Assembly: GCA_029865665.1 (NCBI GenBank)
Contig: JARXAV010000195.1
Span: forward strand, 1 to 22,150
DNA from: Flectobacillus sp.
GTDB taxonomy: Bacteria; Bacteroidota; Bacteroidia; Cytophagales; Spirosomataceae
Direction of reading: 5' to 3'
Length of the DNA: 22,150 bases
The position numbers were made by a program, and so were the translations under genes. Position 1 is the first letter of the stretch; each line of letters begins with the position of its first letter. Under the pieces are notes generated by a model. That model made no database searches, was not told the DNA's origin, and saw only the letters and a list, made by a program, of their open reading frames with translations. Below are positions 1-20,657 of this stretch, piece by piece.

Positions 1-3000
1 AGAATAACAGACTAATTTATTAGTAGGTAAATTAGCAATAGATGAATAAGTAATACTTCCTCTCACTTGGTATTTACCATCTTGTACAGCTTTAATAACT
101 TTGGTGAGATAATTGGTTTGAATCTTATCATTCAATTTCCATTCGTAACCCTTATCATCTCCTATAATTGGAGCTTCCAATGAGAATGGACCAAAAGGAA
201 GAATCGTGTTGTTGGGCGTTGAAGTAGGTAATGCACGAACATCAACCACTACACCACTCGATTGTGCAGATAAACATCCGTTCGTATCTTGTACTCTTAC
301 GGTGTATTTTCCTGTTTTCTTGGCAGTGAAAACATTTCCATTATTAGTTCTTCCTAAAGAATCCTTCGTATCTAAATACCAGTAGGGAGTTAGGTTACTT
401 TGTGCTGCTAATTTTACACTATCGCCACTACAAAAAGTAGTGTAGCCAAGTGTCGATATACTGGTAACACCAGGCAAAGGATTTACTCTAGCTATTACAG
501 GCGTAGATGATTTTGATAAACAGTTATATTGATTGATTGTTTGAACGCTGTAATTACCCGCCAAATTTACCTGAATACTTCTACTTTTAGCCCCTGTACT
601 CCACTGATAGCCTATCTCATCACTTGCATTTAAGGTAATAGACTGATCTGCACAGAATGGATTGCTACCTACTACCGTAATGAATGGTGTTGTTGGTAAT
701 GGGTTCACCCTTGTTTTTGCCGTATCAGATTTTGCCACTGCCAAACAGCCGTTGGCATCTGTAATAGATACTGAAACAATACTGGAACTCTTCAAACTAA
801 TAGCCCTTGCTGTAATTGTACTTGCTACATTGTCAATTGTCCAGAAATACGTATTTCTGCTACTGTCTGGAGTAGAAGTGGGCAATGAAGACTGCAATAT
901 TGTACTGTCGCCTGTACAGAACATTTTGGGTCTTAATGCTGTGATAATCGGCTTTTGTGGAAGCGGATTTACCTTAATCGTTACAGGGTCTGAATACGCT
1001 GAGAAGCAGGTTCTACTATCAATTACTTTTAAGCTATACTTTCCTGATTTTGTGATAGTAAGATTAGCAGAGGTCGCATACTCTAATTTGGTTTGTTCGT
1101 CTCTCCAACTATATTGTACCACATTTACGTTGGCTGCAAGTGCTTCTAAGATCACCTGTCCTCCGTTACAAAACGTTGTAGAAGAACGAGCAAAAATACT
1201 TGGTGTTAGCGGAGCGTCTAGTACTTTTGTGGTTATTTTAGCCGTATCTATTGAGTAACAAGCACCGTTAAAAGGACCTGGACTAGTTGTTTGTAAACCA
1301 TATATTCCTGCCTTACTTACTGTGATTTTTTGTTTTACAGAATCTTGTAAGAGAGCTTTATTAAAATACCAAACATACCCTTTGGGAGAAGTATTAGCTG
1401 TAAACGTTATGGTTTTGTCAGGACAGAATTCTAATGGACCATTTGCTGTGATACTAGGTGCACTTGGACGTGGATACATCTTACTAGCCAAGACATTGGA
1501 CGATTCTACCGACCTACAGCCCTGATTAGAAATGGCAATTGCAGAAATGCCCGTTTGCGTATAATTATAATCAACAGAAGAGGCCGTTTGTCCTGTACTC
1601 CAAATGTAATTGGCTGTATAAGATTCTACTGCTTCTGCTTTAATAGAGGTAAAGTCGTTCTGACAAAACTCTAGTGGTCTCAATGCTGAAATCGTAGGCT
1701 TGGATGGTAGTGGATTTACGGTGATACCTACATTGTCAGATGCCGTAGAGCTACACCCAAAACTATTGGTAACAGTTACATTATAGTTATTGCCTGTTTG
1801 CACATAAATAGTCTGACCAGAACGATTGTTATTCCAACTATAAGATGTTACGCTATTTCTGCTGAAAGCCGTAAGGCGTAAACTATCTCGGTCACAAAAA
1901 CTAAAGCGATTGTCTTGAGTAGTAATACTAGGCTTTTGTGGTGTGGGGTTAATCGTCAATATAATTGAGTTGGAGTAAGGAGATAAACATCCTGTTACAG
2001 CATCTTGAGCTTTTACTTTTACCGTAATTCTAGAGATAGCATAGGTATTTGTATCACTCACAGACAAGGTACGAATGTTTAAGCCTGTAGCCAATTCATT
2101 ACTTTGATTCGAACGATTCCAGATATTATATCCTGTTGTGTAAGAACTCTGTAACGTAGCCGCATTGTTTGTAGCACAGAAGGACGTAAAATTACTTGTC
2201 AATGTTGGGGTAGTGGGTAATGGATTTACTACAAAAACAAGCGTATCTGACGAAGGTGATTTACAGCCCAATGCACTTGTGACTCTTACGGCATATTTCC
2301 CCGCTGTTTTTACCACAATGGAAGCGGTTGTTTTATTATTGCTCCACAAATAAGTACCTGCTCCATTATTGCTTGAAGTCAGTGTACTAGAGTCTCCCGA
2401 ACAGATAGTTTTTAGACCTGTAATAAGGGGTTTGGTAGGAGTTGTGTTGACCGTTAAGGTAAACGGAGTCGAACTCGCAGAATAGCATCCTTGTGTGCTA
2501 ATGGTTCTTACACTATAATTTCCTGCTGTTTTTACCACAATAGTAGCCGTTGTTTTACTATTGTTCCACAAGTAAGTCCCTGTGCCTGCACTACTAGACG
2601 TTAGGGTTGTACTATCGCCAGAACAAATACTACTGAGGCCAGTAATCGTAGGAGTACTAGGTAAGACATATAGAGAAGTAGTTGTGTTTGTCGAAACCGC
2701 CGATGAACAACCTGCACTACTAATTACTTTTACGTTAAATGTTCCTGCCGTTTTTACAACGATACTTTGTGTGGTAGCATTCGTATTCCAAAGGTATGTA
2801 CCTCCTGTTCCTGTACTACTCGATGTTAATATGGTACTATCTCCTGTACAAAAAGCAGTAATTCCGGTGATAGTTGGTGTTGCTGGAGTGCTACTTTGTG
2901 TCACATTAACAGCCGTTGAACTAGCTGATTGACAACCTAGACTATTGGTTACTTTTACAGATATGGTACTTGGAGTACTTACCGAGATACTTTGTGTAGT

Positions 3001-4353
3001 AGCATTATTACTCCAAAGGTATGTACCTCCTGTTCCTGCACTACTCGCAGTTAAGGTAGTACTTCCTGCTAAACAGTAGGTAGAAGAACCGCTTATTGTT
3101 GGAGTACTTGGAGTTGCTTTTTCGGTAACAAATACGCTCGTATTCATGGAAGCACATCCTAGGCTATTGATAACTTGTACGCTATAATTTCCTCCTGTGG
3201 TTACTGTTATAGCTTGTGTGGTGCTTCCGTTACTCCAAAGATAGGAGCCTCCCGTGCCAGCACTACTACTGGTTAAAATGGTATTGCTTCCTGCACAAAA
3301 TGAAGTAGTTCCAGAAATGCTTGGCGGATTGGGTAATGCATTCTGAGTCACGCTTACTGCGGCTGAAGCACTCGAAAAACAACCTGAGCCATTGCCGATT
3401 TGTACCGTGTAAGTACCTGGTGTACTTACGCTGATGCTCTTTGTTGTACTTCCGTCACTCCAAAGGTATGTGCCTCCCGAAATGGTATTGCTAGAGGTAA
3501 GTGTCGTGCTTGAGCCTGCACAAAAACTAGCTGTTCCACTAATCGTAGGAGTTGCTAAAGAACTTGTTTGTGTAACATTAACAGCCGTCGAACTTGCTGA
3601 TTGACAGCCTACACTATTGGCTACTTTTACACTGTAAGGTCCTGCTGTTGAGATATTAATGCTTTTTGTAGTAGCGTTGTTGCTCCAAAGGTATGTTCCT
3701 CCTGTACCTGCATCACTCGATGTTAGGGCTGTGTTACCACCCGTACAAAAAGTTGTTCCTCCAGAAATCGTTGGTGTACTAGGGATGGTCGGTGATAATT
3801 TTAAACTGACACTTGAAGAGCTTGCCGATTCGCATGTTGTTACTGTGTTTACTGTGACAACCGTATAGTTATAAGTACCTTCTGCCGCAACGGATGTGCC
3901 TAGAACATTCAAACTATTTCCCGATACATTTAAGGAGGTGCCGTTTCGTTTCCAGAGGTAATTGCTTGCTCCACTGGCCATAATCGTTCTGCTGGCACTA
4001 CCACAAAGTGGAGTTGTGACATCGGCTGGAGGAGTAATCGTTGGAGCAACCGCTGGTACTACTGGACTATTGATTGTAAATGGTCCCAGTGTTGATGTTC
4101 CACTTGTCTGAATGATGGTAACAGTATATGAACCACTTGCTCTCGTAAGGGTAGCAGTAGAGCCTTCAAGTACTAGTGTACTTGCATTTCTCCAGGTATA
4201 GGAAGTGACATTGCTGGCATTAACTACCGATAAGGTGGCATTGTTGTTGGTACAAGAATAGTTGGCTTGAATAGCTGGTGTCTGTGCGAAAGTACTTTTA
4301 AAACACAGCATTACAAAGAAGACAGCGTAAAGAATAACGGATAAACGCTTCAT
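1..4353 (-). CDS. Secreted multi-module Ig/PKD-like surface protein, partial (C-terminus outside window)
   Basis: The frame stays open from an ATG at 4353 through base 1, giving 1451 codons with no stop, so the 3' end is missing. The N-terminus MKRLSVILYAVFFVMLCF is a signal peptide with likely cleavage after Ala23 (STFA/QT). The mature part is a chain of about 18 Ser/Thr-rich modules. Each has a core of FC.G....L, then YLW or a related Trp, then SI.V...G.Y.V.V, then GC.S. The Trp positions fall near residues 53, 134, 223, 298, 374, 447, 523, 596, 670 and onward to about 1405. Modules at residues 200-700 are about 75 residues long and very alike; later ones are about 75-95 and more diverged. 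Each module usually has two Cys, which could pair after export. Such proteins in Bacteroidota usually end in a type IX secretion or gliding-motility C-terminal domain, which cannot be seen here. The role is probably adhesion or cell-surface structure; ligand unknown. Confidence 0.88.
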   Translation of the reverse strand, partial: MKRLSVILYAVFFVMLCFKSTFAQTPAIQANYSCTNNNATLSVVNASNVTSYTWRNASTLVLEGSTATLTRASGSYTVTIIQTSGTSTLGPFTINSPVVPAVAPTITPPADVTTPLCGSASRTIMASGASNYLWKRNGTSLNVSGNSLNVLGTSVAAEGTYNYTVVTVNTVTTCESASSSSVSLKLSPTIPSTPTISGGTTFCTGGNTALTSSDAGTGGTYLWSNNATTKSINISTAGPYSVKVANSVGCQSASSTAVNVTQTSSLATPTISGTASFCAGSSTTLTSSNTISGGTYLWSDGSTTKSISVSTPGTYTVQIGNGSGCFSSASAAVSVTQNALPNPPSISGTTSFCAGSNTILTSSSAGTGGSYLWSNGSTTQAITVTTGGNYSVQVINSLGCASMNTSVFVTEKATPSTPTISGSSTYCLAGSTTLTASSAGTGGTYLWSNNATTQSISVSTPSTISVKVTNSLGCQSASSTAVNVTQSSTPATPTITGITAFCTGDSTILTSSSTGTGGTYLWNTNATTQSIVVKTAGTFNVKVISSAGCSSAVSTNTTTSLYVLPSTPTITGLSSICSGDSTTLTSSSAGTGTYLWNNSKTTATIVVKTAGNYSVRTISTQGCYSASSTPFTLTVNTTPTKPLITGLKTICSGDSSTLTSSNNGAGTYLWSNNKTTASIVVKTAGKYAVRVTSALGCKSPSSDTLVFVVNPLPTTPTLTSNFTSFCATNNAATLQSSYTTGYNIWNRSNQSNELATGLNIRTLSVSDTNTYAISRITVKVKAQDAVTGCLSPYSNSIILTINPTPQKPSITTQDNRFSFCDRDSLRLTAFSRNSVTSYSWNNNRSGQTIYVQTGNNYNVTVTNSFGCSSTASDNVGITVNPLPSKPTISALRPLEFCQNDFTSIKAEAVESYTANYIWSTGQTASSVDYNYTQTGISAIAISNQGCRSVESSNVLASKMYPRPSAPSITANGPLEFCPDKTITFTANTSPKGYVWYFNKALLQDSVKQKITVSKAGIYGLQTTSPGPFNGACYSIDTAKITTKVLDAPLTPSIFARSSTTFCNGGQVILEALAANVNVVQYSWRDEQTKLEYATSANLTITKSGKYSLKVIDSRTCFSAYSDPVTIKVNPLPQKPIITALRPKMFCTGDSTILQSSLPTSTPDSSRNTYFWTIDNVASTITARAISLKSSSIVSVSITDANGCLAVAKSDTAKTRVNPLPTTPFITVVGSNPFCADQSITLNASDEIGYQWSTGAKSRSIQVNLAGNYSVQTINQYNCLSKSSTPVIARVNPLPGVTSISTLGYTTFCSGDSVKLAAQSNLTPYWYLDTKDSLGRTNNGNVFTAKKTGKYTVRVQDTNGCLSAQSSGVVVDVRALPTSTPNNTILPFGPFSLEAPIIGDDKGYEWKLNDKIQTNYLTKVIKAVQDGKYQVRGSITYSSIANLPTNKLVCYS
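2340..3960 (-). repeat. Intragenic tandem repeats of about 222-225 bp in the surface protein gene
   Basis: The codons for the YLW core recur near 2346, 2569, 2787, 3014, 3234, 3461 and 3686, a spacing of about 220-225 bp (74-75 codons), with a more diverged copy near 3950. Stretches such as ccaaaggtatgt and the following Gly/Thr-rich codons are nearly identical between copies. This high DNA identity suggests recent duplication or gene conversion between modules. It is also a place where short-read assembly could collapse copies. Confidence 0.85.
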
Positions 4354-10035: not shown

Positions 10036-10281
10036 ATGAAAAAAGACATTCACCCAAATTACAGACCAGTGGTATTCCACGATTTGTCTGCTGATTTCAA
10101 ATTCTTAACGCAATCTTGTTGTACTACAACAGAAACAACTGAATTTGAAGGAGAGACTTATCCTGTTTACAAACTAGAGGTTTCATCTTTATCTCACCCT
10201 TTCTATACAGGTAAAAACGTATTACTTGATACAGCAGGTCGTGTTGATAAATTCTACAAACGTTTCGGTGGTAAGAAATAA
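10036..10281 (+). CDS. rpmE2: 50S ribosomal protein bL31 type B
   Basis: 81-residue bL31 of the type B form: [16 protein letters not shown] at the start, then an [16 protein letters not shown] segment ([13 protein letters not shown], about 49-61) and the basic tail FYKRFGGKK. It lacks the CxxC zinc ligands of the zinc-containing bL31; only the adjacent pair C28-C29 is present. In many bacteria the zinc-free form replaces the zinc form when zinc is scarce. In Bacteroidota it is often the only copy, so zinc control cannot be assumed. It is monocistronic here, with its own promoter box and a strong terminator. Confidence 0.96.
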
Positions 10282-10300
10282 GTTTGAGAAAACAACAAAC

Positions 10301-10338
10301 AAAAACACCTCTTGGATTTTTTTCCAAGAGGTGTTTTT
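10301..10338 (+). terminator. Intrinsic terminator of rpmE2
   Basis: aaaacacctcttgga pairs perfectly with tccaagaggtgtttt around a T-rich loop, followed by a T-run. The A-run on the left arm means it can also act in the opposite direction. Confidence 0.93.
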
Positions 10339-10364
10339 GGTTTAAGGCTGACTCTTAAATTTAA

Positions 10365-10440
10365 CCCTCACTGGTGCAAGTGTTAAGCGTAGCGTCACTT
10401 GTACCTACCATCTATTCAGTTTATAACTGAATGATAAAAT
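10365..10440 (+). repeat. REP-like palindromic repeat, copy A (inverted relative to B and C)
   Basis: This two-hairpin unit has H1 at 10373-10405 (ggtgcaagtg pairing with cacttgtacc, one mismatch, with a loop containing tandem AGCGT). H2 is at 10414-10432 (ATTCAGTT, loop tat, AACTGAAT). The H1 core is identical in complement to copies B and C. It ends about 15 bases from the stop codon of the transposase gene. Confidence 0.9.
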
Positions 10441-10454
10441 TTTGAAAAACGCAT

Positions 10455-11012
10455 CTATTCAATTAAAGTTAAATCTTCAATTAGCCCTTTTCGATTATTT
10501 GTGTAATAATCAACTGCACTGCTATATATCCAGTCTTCAGCATTTCTAACAAATCCTGCTTTTACTGGATTTTCGTGCAGATAATCTAATTTTTGTCTCA
10601 TAATGGTAACAGAGTTTAACTCAATAGGTTGATTATGCTGTTGCCAAAATTGTACTTTTTCGTTATTGGGATTCTTTTTGCCTGCCCTCTCAAACATCCA
10701 AATCATCCAATCTTTTTTACTTTCTTGTGGATTTGTTCTAATGGCTTCAACTATTTTTTTTGAAGTGAATTTCTTGAAATCTCTCATTATATTTTGTAAC
10801 AGTTCACCTCTTGTACCTATAATTAGATGAATATGATTAGGCATAATTACCCAAGCATATAGCTCTAAGTCTTTTTCTTTGATACAATATTTTAAACTTT
10901 CAACCACGATGTCTTTATATATGTTTCGAGTAAAGACATCAATCCAATTTACGGTTGAGACACTAATGAAATAAAGTTTGCTTTGGTCGTGGAACTTATA
11001 CTTTCTACTCAT
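10455..11012 (-). CDS. REP-associated tyrosine transposase (RAYT, Y1 transposase family)
   Basis: 185-residue HUH single-strand endonuclease of the IS200/Y1 transposase fold, RAYT branch. The HUH motif is MPNHIHLII with H60 and H62. The family-typical YLHENPVKAGFV sits at 144-155, with Y144 as candidate nucleophile, followed by WIYSSAVDYY. These proteins bind and nick palindromic REP elements and are usually single-copy domesticated enzymes rather than active insertion sequences. The neighbours agree: copy A of the repeat ends 15 bases past the stop and copy B begins about 18 bases before the start codon, in inverted order, so the gene and its two repeats form a compact unit (10365-11122). 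Length is normal and there is no frameshift, so it could be active. Confidence 0.93.
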   Translation of the reverse strand: MSRKYKFHDQSKLYFISVSTVNWIDVFTRNIYKDIVVESLKYCIKEKDLELYAWVIMPNHIHLIIGTRGELLQNIMRDFKKFTSKKIVEAIRTNPQESKKDWMIWMFERAGKKNPNNEKVQFWQQHNQPIELNSVTIMRQKLDYLHENPVKAGFVRNAEDWIYSSAVDYYTNNRKGLIEDLTLIE

Positions 11013-11029
11013 AATTAATTGTTTTGTAG

Positions 11030-11122
11030 AATTTTAACTTAGCTTTTTTTATTATTCAGTTACAAACTGAATCAATTTTAGGTACAAGTGACGCTACGCT
11101 TAACACTTGCACCAGTGGGGGG
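11030..11122 (-). repeat. REP-like palindromic repeat, copy B
   Basis: The unit has H2 at 11054-11072 (ATTCAGTT, loop aca, AACTGAAT) and H1 at 11081-11113. It is nearly identical to copy C over about 93 bases and inverted relative to copy A. It lies directly upstream of the transposase start codon. Confidence 0.92.
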
Positions 11123-11173
11123 CTGATTGCAAATCAGCTTCCAGATGGAACGAGATTACAAATCTCGCTCAGC
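11122..11173. repeat. Two further short hairpins next to copy B
   Basis: Gctgatt/aatcagc with loop gca (11122-11138) and cgagatt/aatctcg with loop aca (11151-11167) are perfect 7-bp stems with 3-nt loops, the same architecture as H2. A third, ctcgct/agcgag, overlaps at 11164-11176. They fill the space between copy B and the stop codon of the reductase gene and may end that transcript or belong to another REP family. Confidence 0.75.
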
Positions 11174-11182
11174 GAGGCAGTT

Positions 11183-11749
11183 TTATGGTCTTGCGTAATG
11201 AAGTAAAATAATACCACATTCAAATGTCTTTGATTTAACTAGTTTGAGATGTTGCCAGTCGTTTAATTTGTCAAAAATTGGAACGCCTTGTCCTAACACC
11301 ACTGGGTTTACAAATAAGTAGAATTCGTCAATTAGGTTTTCTTTTACTAGGTTTGAAACAAAAGAACTACCGCCATAAACAATAATGTCTCTGCCACTTT
11401 GGTTTTTAAGTTTATTAACTTCGTCTATTAAATCGCCCTTGGCAAGCTCTGTATTTTCCCAAATGGATTTTTCTAATGTCTTTGAGAAAACGATTTTCTT
11501 TTGTCCTGCTTTTATCTTCGCTATTTCATACATCGTTGATTCTGGCTGTGTAAAGGTATCAGTCCAAAATGGAATATAGTCAACAGCCAATTTTCTGCCT
11601 ATTAGTTCGGTATCACAACTGTTAGCCAAGTCATGAACGTCTTGTTTTATTTCGTCCCAAGCCCAAGTTACCCATTTTTGCTCATCGTTTGGTCCAGTTG
11701 AATTAAACCCGTCAAGGGAAATCTGCATTTGTAATTTTAATTTTCTCAT
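11183..11749 (-). CDS. Dihydrofolate reductase-like / RibD C-terminal domain protein
   Basis: 188-residue single-domain protein of the RibD_C family, which has a dihydrofolate-reductase fold. Family features are QISLDGF at 9-15, LIGRK at 49-53, the nucleotide-binding glycine stretch VYGGSSF at 124-130, and NPVVLGQGVPIF at 148-159. Members of this stand-alone group (YyaP/YwjB-like) are presumed NADPH-dependent reductases with unknown substrates; a true folate or riboflavin role cannot be claimed. It lies 42 bases downstream of the acetyltransferase gene, so the two are probably co-transcribed. The spacer has a perfect inverted repeat cattaat/attaatg at 11752-11770. Both genes are enclosed between repeat copies B and C. 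Confidence 0.85.
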   Translation of the reverse strand: MRKLKLQMQISLDGFNSTGPNDEQKWVTWAWDEIKQDVHDLANSCDTELIGRKLAVDYIPFWTDTFTQPESTMYEIAKIKAGQKKIVFSKTLEKSIWENTELAKGDLIDEVNKLKNQSGRDIIVYGGSSFVSNLVKENLIDEFYLFVNPVVLGQGVPIFDKLNDWQHLKLVKSKTFECGIILLHYARP

Positions 11750-11751
11750 TT

Positions 11752-11778
11752 CATTAATTGGTTATTAATGCACTAGTG
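11752..11778. repeat. Small palindromes between the acetyltransferase and reductase genes
   Basis: A perfect 7-bp inverted repeat (cattaat, loop tggtt, attaatg) at 11752-11770 is followed at once by the 8-base palindrome cactagtg at 11771-11778. They fill most of the 42-base spacer. Confidence 0.55.
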
Positions 11779-11791
11779 AGGCGTTCGTTTT

Positions 11792-12415
11792 TTATTCGGT
11801 TAATTTGTCAATTTCATTGTCTGTTAAGTTTTGAATGTTTTTTGTTATTCTTTCAATGTCCCAATTCCACCATTTGAGTTTTAATAATTTTGAAATTGTT
11901 TCTTCGGAAAATCGCCTTTTAATTTCCTTAGCAGGATTTCCTCCGACAATCGAATAAGGTTCAACATCTTTTATAACTGTCGAATTTGTTGCAATTATTG
12001 CCCCATCTCCAATTGTTACTCCTGCCATTATTGTTGCATTGTAACCAATCCAGACGTCATTACCAATATTTATGTCGCCCTTTTGTGGGTAAGATTTATT
12101 GTCCATTGCGTTTTCCCAACCGTTTCCAAAAATCGCAAAGGGATAAGTTGTCAGAGCATTTGTCAAATGATTTGCTCCATTCATTATAAATTTCACGTCA
12201 GAAGCAATCATACAAAACTTTCCGATTATTAATTTGTCACCGACAAAGTCAAAATGGTATTTTACATTTTTTTCAAAGTTGTTAACATTATCAAAATCGT
12301 CATAATAGGTAAAGTCGCCTACAATTATATTTGGATTTTTAACAACATTCTTCAAAAAGCAAAGTCTGTCATAATTGTCAAGTGGAAATTTAATGTCTTT
12401 ATTGGGTCCTGTCAT
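11792..12415 (-). CDS. Vat-type hexapeptide O-acetyltransferase (xenobiotic acyltransferase family)
   Basis: 207-residue left-handed beta-helix acetyltransferase of the xenobiotic group, closest by eye to streptogramin A acetyltransferases (Vat). Conserved points are the N-terminal MTGPNKDIKFP, PNIIVGDFTYYDD at 28-40, GDKLIIGKFCMIASDVKFIMNGANH at 59-83 with the catalytic His at 83, IGNDVWIGYNATIMAGVTIGDGAIIATNSTV with hexapeptide repeats at 117-147, and VGGNPAKEIKRRF at 157-169. The C-terminal WWNWDIERI is also typical. These enzymes acetylate a hydroxyl of group A streptogramins from acetyl-CoA. Whether this one confers resistance is unknown, since chromosomal Vat homologues may have other substrates. 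It sits in a REP-bounded pair with a reductase gene, suggesting mobile or accessory origin. Confidence 0.88.
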   Translation of the reverse strand: MTGPNKDIKFPLDNYDRLCFLKNVVKNPNIIVGDFTYYDDFDNVNNFEKNVKYHFDFVGDKLIIGKFCMIASDVKFIMNGANHLTNALTTYPFAIFGNGWENAMDNKSYPQKGDINIGNDVWIGYNATIMAGVTIGDGAIIATNSTVIKDVEPYSIVGGNPAKEIKRRFSEETISKLLKLKWWNWDIERITKNIQNLTDNEIDKLTE

Positions 12416-12435
12416 AAAATTTTCTATTAATTTAC

Positions 12436-12450
12436 TCGCACCAGTGGGGG
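12436..12450 (-). repeat. Solo 3' fragment of the REP unit abutting copy C
   Basis: The string gcaccagtggggg equals the terminal bases of copies B and C and joins directly to the first base of copy C at 12451. It looks like the end of an older, otherwise lost copy, or a junction left by duplication of the unit. Confidence 0.6.
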
Positions 12451-12544
12451 AATTTTAACTTAGCATTTTTTATTATTCAGTTATAAACTGAATCAATTTT
12501 AGGTACAAGTGACGCTACGCTTAACACTTGCACCAGTGGGGGGG
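12451..12544 (-). repeat. REP-like palindromic repeat, copy C
   Basis: Same orientation as copy B and almost identical: H2 at 12475-12493 (loop ata instead of aca) and H1 at 12502-12534, ending in a run of seven G against six in B. It lies just downstream of the DUF6602-like gene stop and upstream of the acetyltransferase start. With B it makes a direct-repeat pair around 11123-12450. Confidence 0.92.
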
Positions 12545-12548
12545 ATTA

Positions 12549-13295
12549 TTAGAATTGTTTTATAAGGTTAAGCTCTTTGTCTGTTGCGTACCAAATGAAA
12601 TTATTTTTTTCGATTGATTTATTTGCTAAAGTGTCAATGAGGTTTGAAATAAAGAATGAAAATGAAAGGTCTTCAATATTATAAATTGAATGAGGATTTG
12701 TGTCATTATTCCAAACTTTAATAAACCAATCCTTATTCAAGGAAACGTGATTTACTTTAAATTTTAAGTAGTCAGGGTCAGCTAAAAACTCTGAGTTACT
12801 TTGTAAATAATTGTTTACGAAAGTTTCCTTAGCGAAATTATTTGCAAAACCTTCATATGAAAATACACCGTTGAAGAATTTTTGTGTTTTATCTTCTTTT
12901 CCTGATAAAATGAATTGTCCATTTTCATTTGCTTGTTTTAAAACACTGGGTATTCCTTGGTTTTGTAAATTTGCTTTAACTTCAATTATTCCTCTTACTG
13001 CGTCTGGTGTTAAGATGACAAAATCTCCCTCTTTAAATAGTACAGGACTTGCATCGTCATAAATTATTAAGTCAATTTGTCTTGATGACAAATGTTCGCC
13101 ACGATTTTGAGTTTGCTTAATAACAAAACCTGTTCCGATTGAATATTTTTCAGGAAGGAAACGTCTTATAACATTTTTCAAAACGGCTTCCTTGTAACGT
13201 CCGTCTTCACCCCAATGTGTTATAAGGTTCCTAACTTTATTTGTCAGGGCTAAGAGTTCGTTTGATGTTGTTCTATGATAGTCAATTAGGCTCAT
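12549..13295 (-). CDS. DUF6602-like protein with PD-(D/E)XK nuclease-type pattern
   Basis: 248-residue soluble protein. The stretch FLPEKYSIGTGFVI (46-59), the block SRQIDLIIYDDASPVLFKEG (71-90), and PDAVRGIIEVKA (97-108) are characteristic, as I recall them, of DUF6602. They fit the PD-(D/E)XK nuclease pattern: E36 in the first helix, D75 in QIDLIIYD, and E105-x-K107 in IIEVKA. The C-terminal half (about 130-248) is less conserved and has no recognised domain. There is no signal peptide. Related proteins are found alone and in accessory or defence-rich regions; their activity is, to my knowledge, uncharacterised. Here it stands alone: no methylase, helicase or antitoxin partner is adjacent. 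It is AT-rich compared with the catabolic genes to its right. The family name is moderately sure; nuclease activity is inference. Confidence 0.72.
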   Translation of the reverse strand: MSLIDYHRTTSNELLALTNKVRNLITHWGEDGRYKEAVLKNVIRRFLPEKYSIGTGFVIKQTQNRGEHLSSRQIDLIIYDDASPVLFKEGDFVILTPDAVRGIIEVKANLQNQGIPSVLKQANENGQFILSGKEDKTQKFFNGVFSYEGFANNFAKETFVNNYLQSNSEFLADPDYLKFKVNHVSLNKDWFIKVWNNDTNPHSIYNIEDLSFSFFISNLIDTLANKSIEKNNFIWYATDKELNLIKQF

Positions 13296-17457: not shown

Positions 17458-17537
17458 TTCATGAAGCTGTTTAAACTTTCTTGACACAGGTGAATGAATT
17501 CACCTGCTAAATGGAATGCTTGGTTTTAACGCTAAAT
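17458..17537 (+). repeat. Inverted-pair repeat L (left flank of garD-garR)
   Basis: It shares ttaaactttcttgacac, ggtgaa, an aa-tggaat block and ttttaacgctaaat with the complement of 20558-20657. This copy contains a perfect hairpin caggtgaa/ttcacctg with loop tgaa (17487-17506). Its last block also forms the left arm of the following terminator. Confidence 0.75.
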
Positions 17538-20557: not shown

Positions 20558-20657
20558 ATTTAGCGTTAAAATCAAGTGTAGAGCGAGTTCCTAAGGATTC
20601 CACTTAGCGGGAGGAGGAGTTCACCCGTGTCAAGAAAGTTTAACCAGTTCATAAAGC
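20558..20657 (-). repeat. Inverted-pair repeat R (right flank of garD-garR)
   Basis: The complement of this segment repeats the order of L: ttaaactttcttgacac, ggtgaa, an aagtggaat block and ttttaacgctaaat, with a longer middle (about 30 extra bases). It has its own small ctaag/cttag palindrome. It ends about 50 bases before the gudD start. Confidence 0.75.

Follow-up and report, generated by a model that had tools for sequence, protein, structure and literature searches.

Genes for REP-associated tyrosine transposases (RAYTs) typically sit between two inverted copies of a repetitive extragenic palindrome (REP), and new REPs have been proposed to arise preferentially close to the rayt gene (PMC2817692). 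RAYT subclass 2.6, mostly from Bacteroidetes, is described with the motifs NH[LIV]H, WQ and YIH[QN]NP, and with genes flanked by atypical secondary structures of which copies occur elsewhere in the genome (PMC6006769). REPs lie mostly downstream of open reading frames (ORFs), often less than 20 bp from the 3′ end (PMC3733652), and in Escherichia coli 446 of 4,072 predicted REPs were placed within 15 nt of a stop codon (PMC12306157). The present analysis concerns a stretch of 22,150 nt from Flectobacillus sp. (contig JARXAV010000195.1, positions 1 to 22,150; hereafter the window), which holds three copies (A, B and C) of a two-hairpin repeat, a RAYT gene between A and B, and genes for a Vat-like acetyltransferase and a dihydrofolate reductase (DHFR)-like reductase between B and C. 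The arrangement A-RAYT-B is very probably a REPtron, with C as a further REP copy and with the Vat and reductase genes as independent bystanders that are not cargo.

Copy A occupies 75 nt on the minus strand (10365–10439), and copies B (11029–11122) and C (12450–12543) lie on the plus strand. B and C were identical at 92 of 94 positions (98%) with a spacing of 1421 nt, and share 18 nt that are missing from A; the complementarity of A to B and C was 91–92% (91% over 75 nt for B). A 29-nt core of the repeat occurred exactly three times in the window and in none of 100 shuffles. Folded as single-stranded DNA, each copy gave two hairpins, with z-scores of −4.7 to −5.6 and with none of 200 shuffles folding equally well. 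The first stem is formed by GGTGCAAGTG...CACTTGTACC with an inner bulge, and the second hairpin by ATTCAGTT...AACTGAAT. In an alignment of the first stem drawn from the window and relatives (18 rows, 17 distinct), 90.9% of the alignment cells were paired, compared with 17–42% when the partners were slid. The hairpin foot of all three copies reads CACT and is not a GT[AG]G tetranucleotide. A fourth piece, a 17-nt foot end of the repeat (12434–12450, plus strand; 16 of 17 positions identical) that the sequence-only reading had not mentioned, abuts C, and such repeat ends were found in the window only at this site and at A, B and C. A scan of positions 10250–12650 against Rfam gave no match at E ≤ 0.1, and no tandem repeats were reported by Tandem Repeats Finder. 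Between B and the stop of the reductase gene, at approximately 11121–11165, a second and different pair of short palindromes without assigned strand (GCTGATTGCAAATCAGC and GAGATTACAAATCTC) was read from the sequence; it was likewise absent from the earlier description and possibly belongs to a separate repeat family.

The gene between A and B (10455–11012, minus strand) encodes 185 amino acids (aa) with a Y1_Tnp domain, in which the HUH motif (NHIH), the catalytic tyrosine motif (YLHENP) and FWQ were located by alignment. The ORF passed the NCBIfam model for REP-associated tyrosine transposases, NF047646, with 104.2 bits against a cut-off of 80. An IS200/IS605 insertion sequence was considered and rejected, the score against the transposase equivalog NF033573 being 26.9 bits, below its cut-off of 55. 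Judged by motifs and without a tree, the window RAYT appears closest to subclass 2.6, with a tyrosine motif that differs from the published one at two positions, and the subclass 2.4 motif YIxNNP fits less well. The HUH and WQ motifs, a length near 180 aa, two inverted hairpin repeats around the gene, copies in related genomes and placement behind stop codons are shared with the published subclass 2.6, from which the window unit differs in having YLHENP where YIH[QN]NP is described and in its CACT foot (PMC6006769). As subclass 2.6 is described with atypical structures, a foot other than GT[AG]G does not exclude this assignment. The Group 2 REPtron of Escherichia coli likewise has a single-strand hairpin with an internal bulge, and the CT of the window foot is the dinucleotide cut by the E. 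coli enzyme, whereas the window repeat has no GTAG guide and cutting by the window enzyme is only putative (PMC8266576). Taken together, the family model, motifs, folds and the REP/RAYT features described in PMC2817692 and PMC6006769 support A-RAYT-B as a known type of Bacteroidota REP/RAYT unit. The sequence-only reading had proposed three two-hairpin copies with A and B inverted around a Y1/RAYT gene, direct and near-identical B and C copies, and a REP/RAYT identity for the whole, and in these respects it was correct.

The orientation of the repeat with respect to neighbouring genes was counted for 35 copies in 20 stretches, the window included; the loci had been chosen because they hold the repeat, ORFs were taken from a simple caller, and weaker copies found later in the DNA around strong ones were included. 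The foot end (...CACTTGCACCAG) was directed at the stop codon of the neighbouring gene in 26 of 34 scorable copies. Where the gene lay within 60 nt of the foot end, its stop was faced in 18 of 19 cases (16 of 17 when the copies of the window itself were left out). The opposite end of the repeat showed no preference, with 17 stops and 18 starts overall and six of each within 60 nt; at this distance the two ends differed (18/19 versus 6/12, Fisher p = 0.007). In the window, the foot end of C lies 5 nt from the stop of a gene for a DUF6602-domain protein (12549–13295, minus strand, 248 aa; PF20247, 1.5e-20), that of B lies 60 nt from the stop of the reductase gene, the other end of B lying 16 nt from the RAYT start, and that of A is directed at a gene for ribosomal protein L31, which we take to be rpmE2 (10036–10281, plus strand; assigned outside the family scans). 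B and C are therefore direct because the DHFR-like and DUF6602 genes, whose stops they face, run the same way, and A is inverted because rpmE2, whose stop it faces, runs the opposite way. The bias thus accounts for the arrangement of A, B and C, and it also explains why the REP copies resemble the borders of a cassette.

The proposed course of events is as follows. A-RAYT-B would be a RAYT (TnpA-REP) gene between two inverted cognate REPs, of the Bacteroidota type with unusual hairpins, and the RAYT would copy the REP through single-stranded DNA. By its activity C would have come to lie behind the stop of the adjacent DUF6602 gene, in the place of or next to an earlier repeat end now reduced to 17 nt. 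C is probably a recent copy of the same REP and would be younger than B, and its position near the RAYT gene fits the proposed preference for REP formation close to rayt genes (PMC2817692). The genes for the reductase and Vat would be independently spread accessory genes in a low-GC variable stretch behind rpmE2, and would be enclosed by B and C simply because each of these REPs stands, in the usual orientation, behind the stop of one of two co-directional genes, DHFR-like and DUF6602. Read in this way, the locus illustrates in detail a sparsely described type of REPtron from Bacteroidota, with a defined repeat, a foot that is not GTAG and a clear orientation bias towards stop codons.

It had further been claimed that only two genes are enclosed by B and C, and that the block could be cargo picked up by, or a duplication made by, REP/RAYT activity. 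Among ORFs of at least 100 aa the first statement was true. The two are a RibD_C-domain (DHFR-like) reductase gene (11183–11749, minus strand, 188 aa; PF01872, 8.3e-24) and a gene for a Vat-like streptogramin A O-acetyltransferase of the hexapeptide type (11792–12415, minus strand, 207 aa; PF00132), the product of which scored 287.2 bits against NF000311, slightly below the Vat cut-off of 300. For the second, 390 genomes drawn from the order were searched with Vat, and 60 gave close matches, 61 in all at E ≤ 1e-70; the best 30 of the 61 matches, with approximately 1.5 kb of flank, and three loci of the genus with more flank were examined. The window repeat was present at none of these 33 Vat loci at E ≤ 1e-3, and the reductase gene adjoined Vat at none of them. 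The reductase family has a wide distribution, with 6024 homologues at E ≤ 0.001; the sole DHFR-like match at E ≤ 1e-6 in the genus, in genome G090 (41–44% identity), also had no window repeat nearby. Relatives that have the genes but lack the repeat had been named in the sequence-only reading as an observation that would refute it, and for Vat this observation was made. Plasmids yielded only distant relatives of Vat and DHFR, with no coverage of the repeat among the 20 of 59 records listed, and phages likewise yielded only distant relatives, with the repeat covered in none of three records; two pattern matches to the DHFR-like gene in viral contigs were not confirmed. An empty site with a single repeat copy was sought around the 33 Vat loci and at a site next to a SixA gene in the relatives (see below), and none was seen; no gene was found that carries its REP at two different loci. 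Duplication of the Vat-DHFR pair was rejected, neither gene being repeated within the window. Cargo or duplication is thus not supported, given the repeat-free Vat loci, the orientation bias that explains the direct order, and the lack of a repeated gene; of the interpretation as a whole the REP/RAYT identity stood and the cargo or duplication part did not, although two relatives also have direct repeat pairs, which mostly enclose accessory-type genes.

The relatives used were eight genomes of one genus, among them a Cytophagales metagenome-assembled genome (MAG; G001). The window Obg protein was 80–84% identical to their Obg, so that the window should represent a genus-level or slightly more distant relative. 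A genome-wide search for the repeat unit in these eight, as the sequence-only reading had suggested, gave six matches at E ≤ 0.1 in G001, 13 in G038, none in G067 and one to four in each of the remaining five (best 1.9e-5, G079). The exact 29-nt core was found elsewhere in two genome contig records, from G001 and from a Flavobacteriia MAG (G002), and a shifted 29-nt core gave no match in viral contigs. The G002 repeat was 91–97% like six other window-like copies compared, whereas its Obg was only 64% identical to that of the window, and either transfer or misbinning of its contig could be the reason. In G038 and in more distant genomes, some copies have two extra arms that form a long hairpin (by eye; one was folded); shorter and longer, four-arm forms of the repeat occur side by side in relatives. 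This differs from the published subclass 2.6, and so does the order of neighbouring copies within one stretch outside the window: 12 of 13 adjacent pairs, counted by hand, were direct, with genes between most of them (PMC6006769). As a separate observation, at L108 7646–7937 (G067:C72), beside a RAYT 77% identical to that of the window, units of 90 nt and 56 nt each occur twice in tandem; they differ from the window repeat, and a CCAG end and one hairpin arm are common to both by eye. At L095 1882–2298 (G038:C45) a 138-aa ORF, which presumably resembles frr, adjoins REPs; it was matched at 97% at this site and equally by a longer frame on G038:C22, and G038 therefore seems to hold a second, shorter copy of the gene.

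Several points weigh against the REPtron-with-bystanders reading. The B-C pair was the closest of all copies compared (99% over the 75-nt core; next-closest pair 97%), which is compatible with a linked event too. Stem covariation was weak and adds little to the stem evidence, as only two pairs showed two-sided changes and this count was reached by 220 of 500 shuffles. YLHENP departs from the published subclass 2.6 motif, and G067 has the 77%-identical RAYT yet no repeat copy at E ≤ 0.1, so that the genus shows no strict pairing of repeat with RAYT. One of the 33 Vat loci, in G038, adjoins a RAYT that differs in kind from that of the window and is accompanied by inverted repeats of its own. Finally, direct pairs within 3.3 kb were more frequent than expected from uniform scatter, with three among 13 copies in G038 (0.10 expected, P = 0.0004) and two among six copies in G001 (0.02 expected, P = 0.00015), and the REPtron reading alone does not explain this clustering. 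With E ≤ 1e-3 matches alone, G038 gave two pairs among 10 copies (P = 0.001). The test was limited to hits of the genome-wide search (E ≤ 0.1), because the weaker copies added later came from DNA around strong ones. All clustered pairs in both genomes were direct, with the copies one to three genes apart. At the G038 locus in question (L114 8742–10664, G038:C15, and also L078 610–2614), a Vat gene 83% identical to that of the window lies directly beside the RAYT, which is approximately 30% identical to the window RAYT and is accompanied, besides its own inverted repeats, by another, partial repeat next to an orphan gene of 150 aa.

Other genes between two repeat copies, which the sequence-only reading had proposed to look for, were thus present in two relatives, and were mostly of accessory type: a GNAT acetyltransferase gene in G001, where a second pair encloses an 868-aa ORF, and in G038 genes for a YhcG/DUF1016 nuclease, a glyoxalase-like protein and an ABC transporter, together with orphan genes. 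At the SixA site, SixA and a gene termed p324 (39–40% identical) are adjacent, approximately 40–180 nt apart, with neither insert nor REP in G054, G001 and G079. In G038 the interval holds three REPs and two small genes (REP-p81-REP-p158-REP), and G067 and G099 have other, REP-free inserts, G099 matching only a fragment of p324. REPs and accessory genes occupy common soft spots, and local hopping of REPs with a preference for variable intergenic regions explains the data more simply than movement of genes by REPs.

Among the other explanations considered, homologous recombination has the best standing and is still improbable. In this scheme a DHFR-Vat circle with one REP would have recombined with a REP already present, the block being bordered by B and C ever since, and the RAYT would have done no more than make the repeats. 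The near-identity of B and C over 94 nt at the block ends, including the 18 nt absent from A, is what such an event would leave, but a clean crossover would not be expected to leave the 17-nt repeat end that adjoins C towards Vat, a stretch of 94 nt offers little length for homologous exchange, no circle or REP-tagged donor was seen among the Vat loci and viral contigs searched, and B and C can equally be read as two young copies.

Rather poor prospects are also given to the idea that the repeats mark gene cassettes, in which a REP at the 3′ end of a gene serves as a recombination tag and the RAYT cuts the tags and moves gene and REP in single-stranded form, building arrays such as DUF6602-C/Vat-DHFR-B. 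The 3′ position and orientation bias, the prevalence of direct order between neighbouring copies outside the window, the direct pairs around accessory-type genes in G001 and G038, the clustering beyond uniform scatter, and the contrast at the SixA site between three empty genomes and the REP-gene array of G038 all agree with it. Against this, genes behind REPs in G038 were no more strain-variable than controls: 3 of 14 were matched in at least two of three genomes, compared with 6 of 19 controls (p = 0.70), and 6 of 14 compared with 10 of 19 in at least one (p = 0.73). This was a small test tallied by hand, in which a match required at least 50% identity and controls came from the same loci (the last of the 19 over 53 of 65 residues, with five further drawn controls left out); searches were also made with the 13 genes that flank the REPs at their opposite end, one seemingly a spurious ORF, but these did not enter the test. 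Moreover, the SixA site also takes inserts that are REP-free, and the missing one-REP empty site, the failure to find a gene with its REP at two loci, and the Vat loci without a REP are all unfavourable. The broader claim, that the REPs of this Cytophagales genus are 3′ tags of single genes or small groups shuffled by RAYTs in single-stranded form, with B-C as one such unit, is equally doubtful or slightly more so. If it held, direct, REP-separated accessory genes would fill variable regions as an integrase-free analogue of integron cassettes, and RAYTs would for the first time be known to move genes; we know of no such traffic, and one aimed literature search showed none among the titles listed. 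Integron gene cassettes proper, in which attC sites stand behind genes in a preferred orientation and form direct arrays of small genes, as the window repeats do, can be dismissed almost completely, since A, B and C have no paired attC core sites (by eye, against the usual consensus), sequence conservation extends into the hairpin interior, a RAYT is framed by the repeats, and scans of 14 of the 20 window ORFs of at least 100 aa identified no integrase.

The divergent RNR-rpmE2 pair was conserved in seven of the eight genus genomes, with whole proteins 85–87% and 88–89% identical to those of the window, respectively. Downstream of rpmE2 a gene of 384–388 aa recurs in several of these genomes, with or without genes before it, and none of them showed the window repeat there (best E 0.69); the DUF6602 gene had no match in the eight genomes at E ≤ 1e-6. 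Because the content behind rpmE2 differs across the genus, the stretch in the window is regarded as one version of a variable site. GC contents of the RAYT, DHFR, Vat and DUF6602 genes were 31–35%, compared with 38.8% for the window, and those of rpmE2 (35.0%) and adk (36.1%) were nearly as low. Behind rpmE2 lies a terminator-like hairpin (10297–10342, plus strand), an inverted repeat with 20-nt arms that are 95% complementary. At L154 2946–5706 (G090:C122) the final 25 codons of rpmE2 recur (84% identity to the window protein) approximately 2.4 kb away, with three ORFs (388, 140 and 229 aa) between, a pattern that would suit an element integrating into the 3′ end of rpmE2.

Elsewhere in the window, positions 2284–3786 contain two diverged families of direct repeats with a spacing of 222–225 nt (five copies at 61–72% and two at 73%), which probably belong to a repetitive protein. 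A 55-nt inverted repeat (17467–17521 and 20593–20647, 80%) surrounds genes for galactarate dehydratase and 2-hydroxy-3-oxopropionate reductase.

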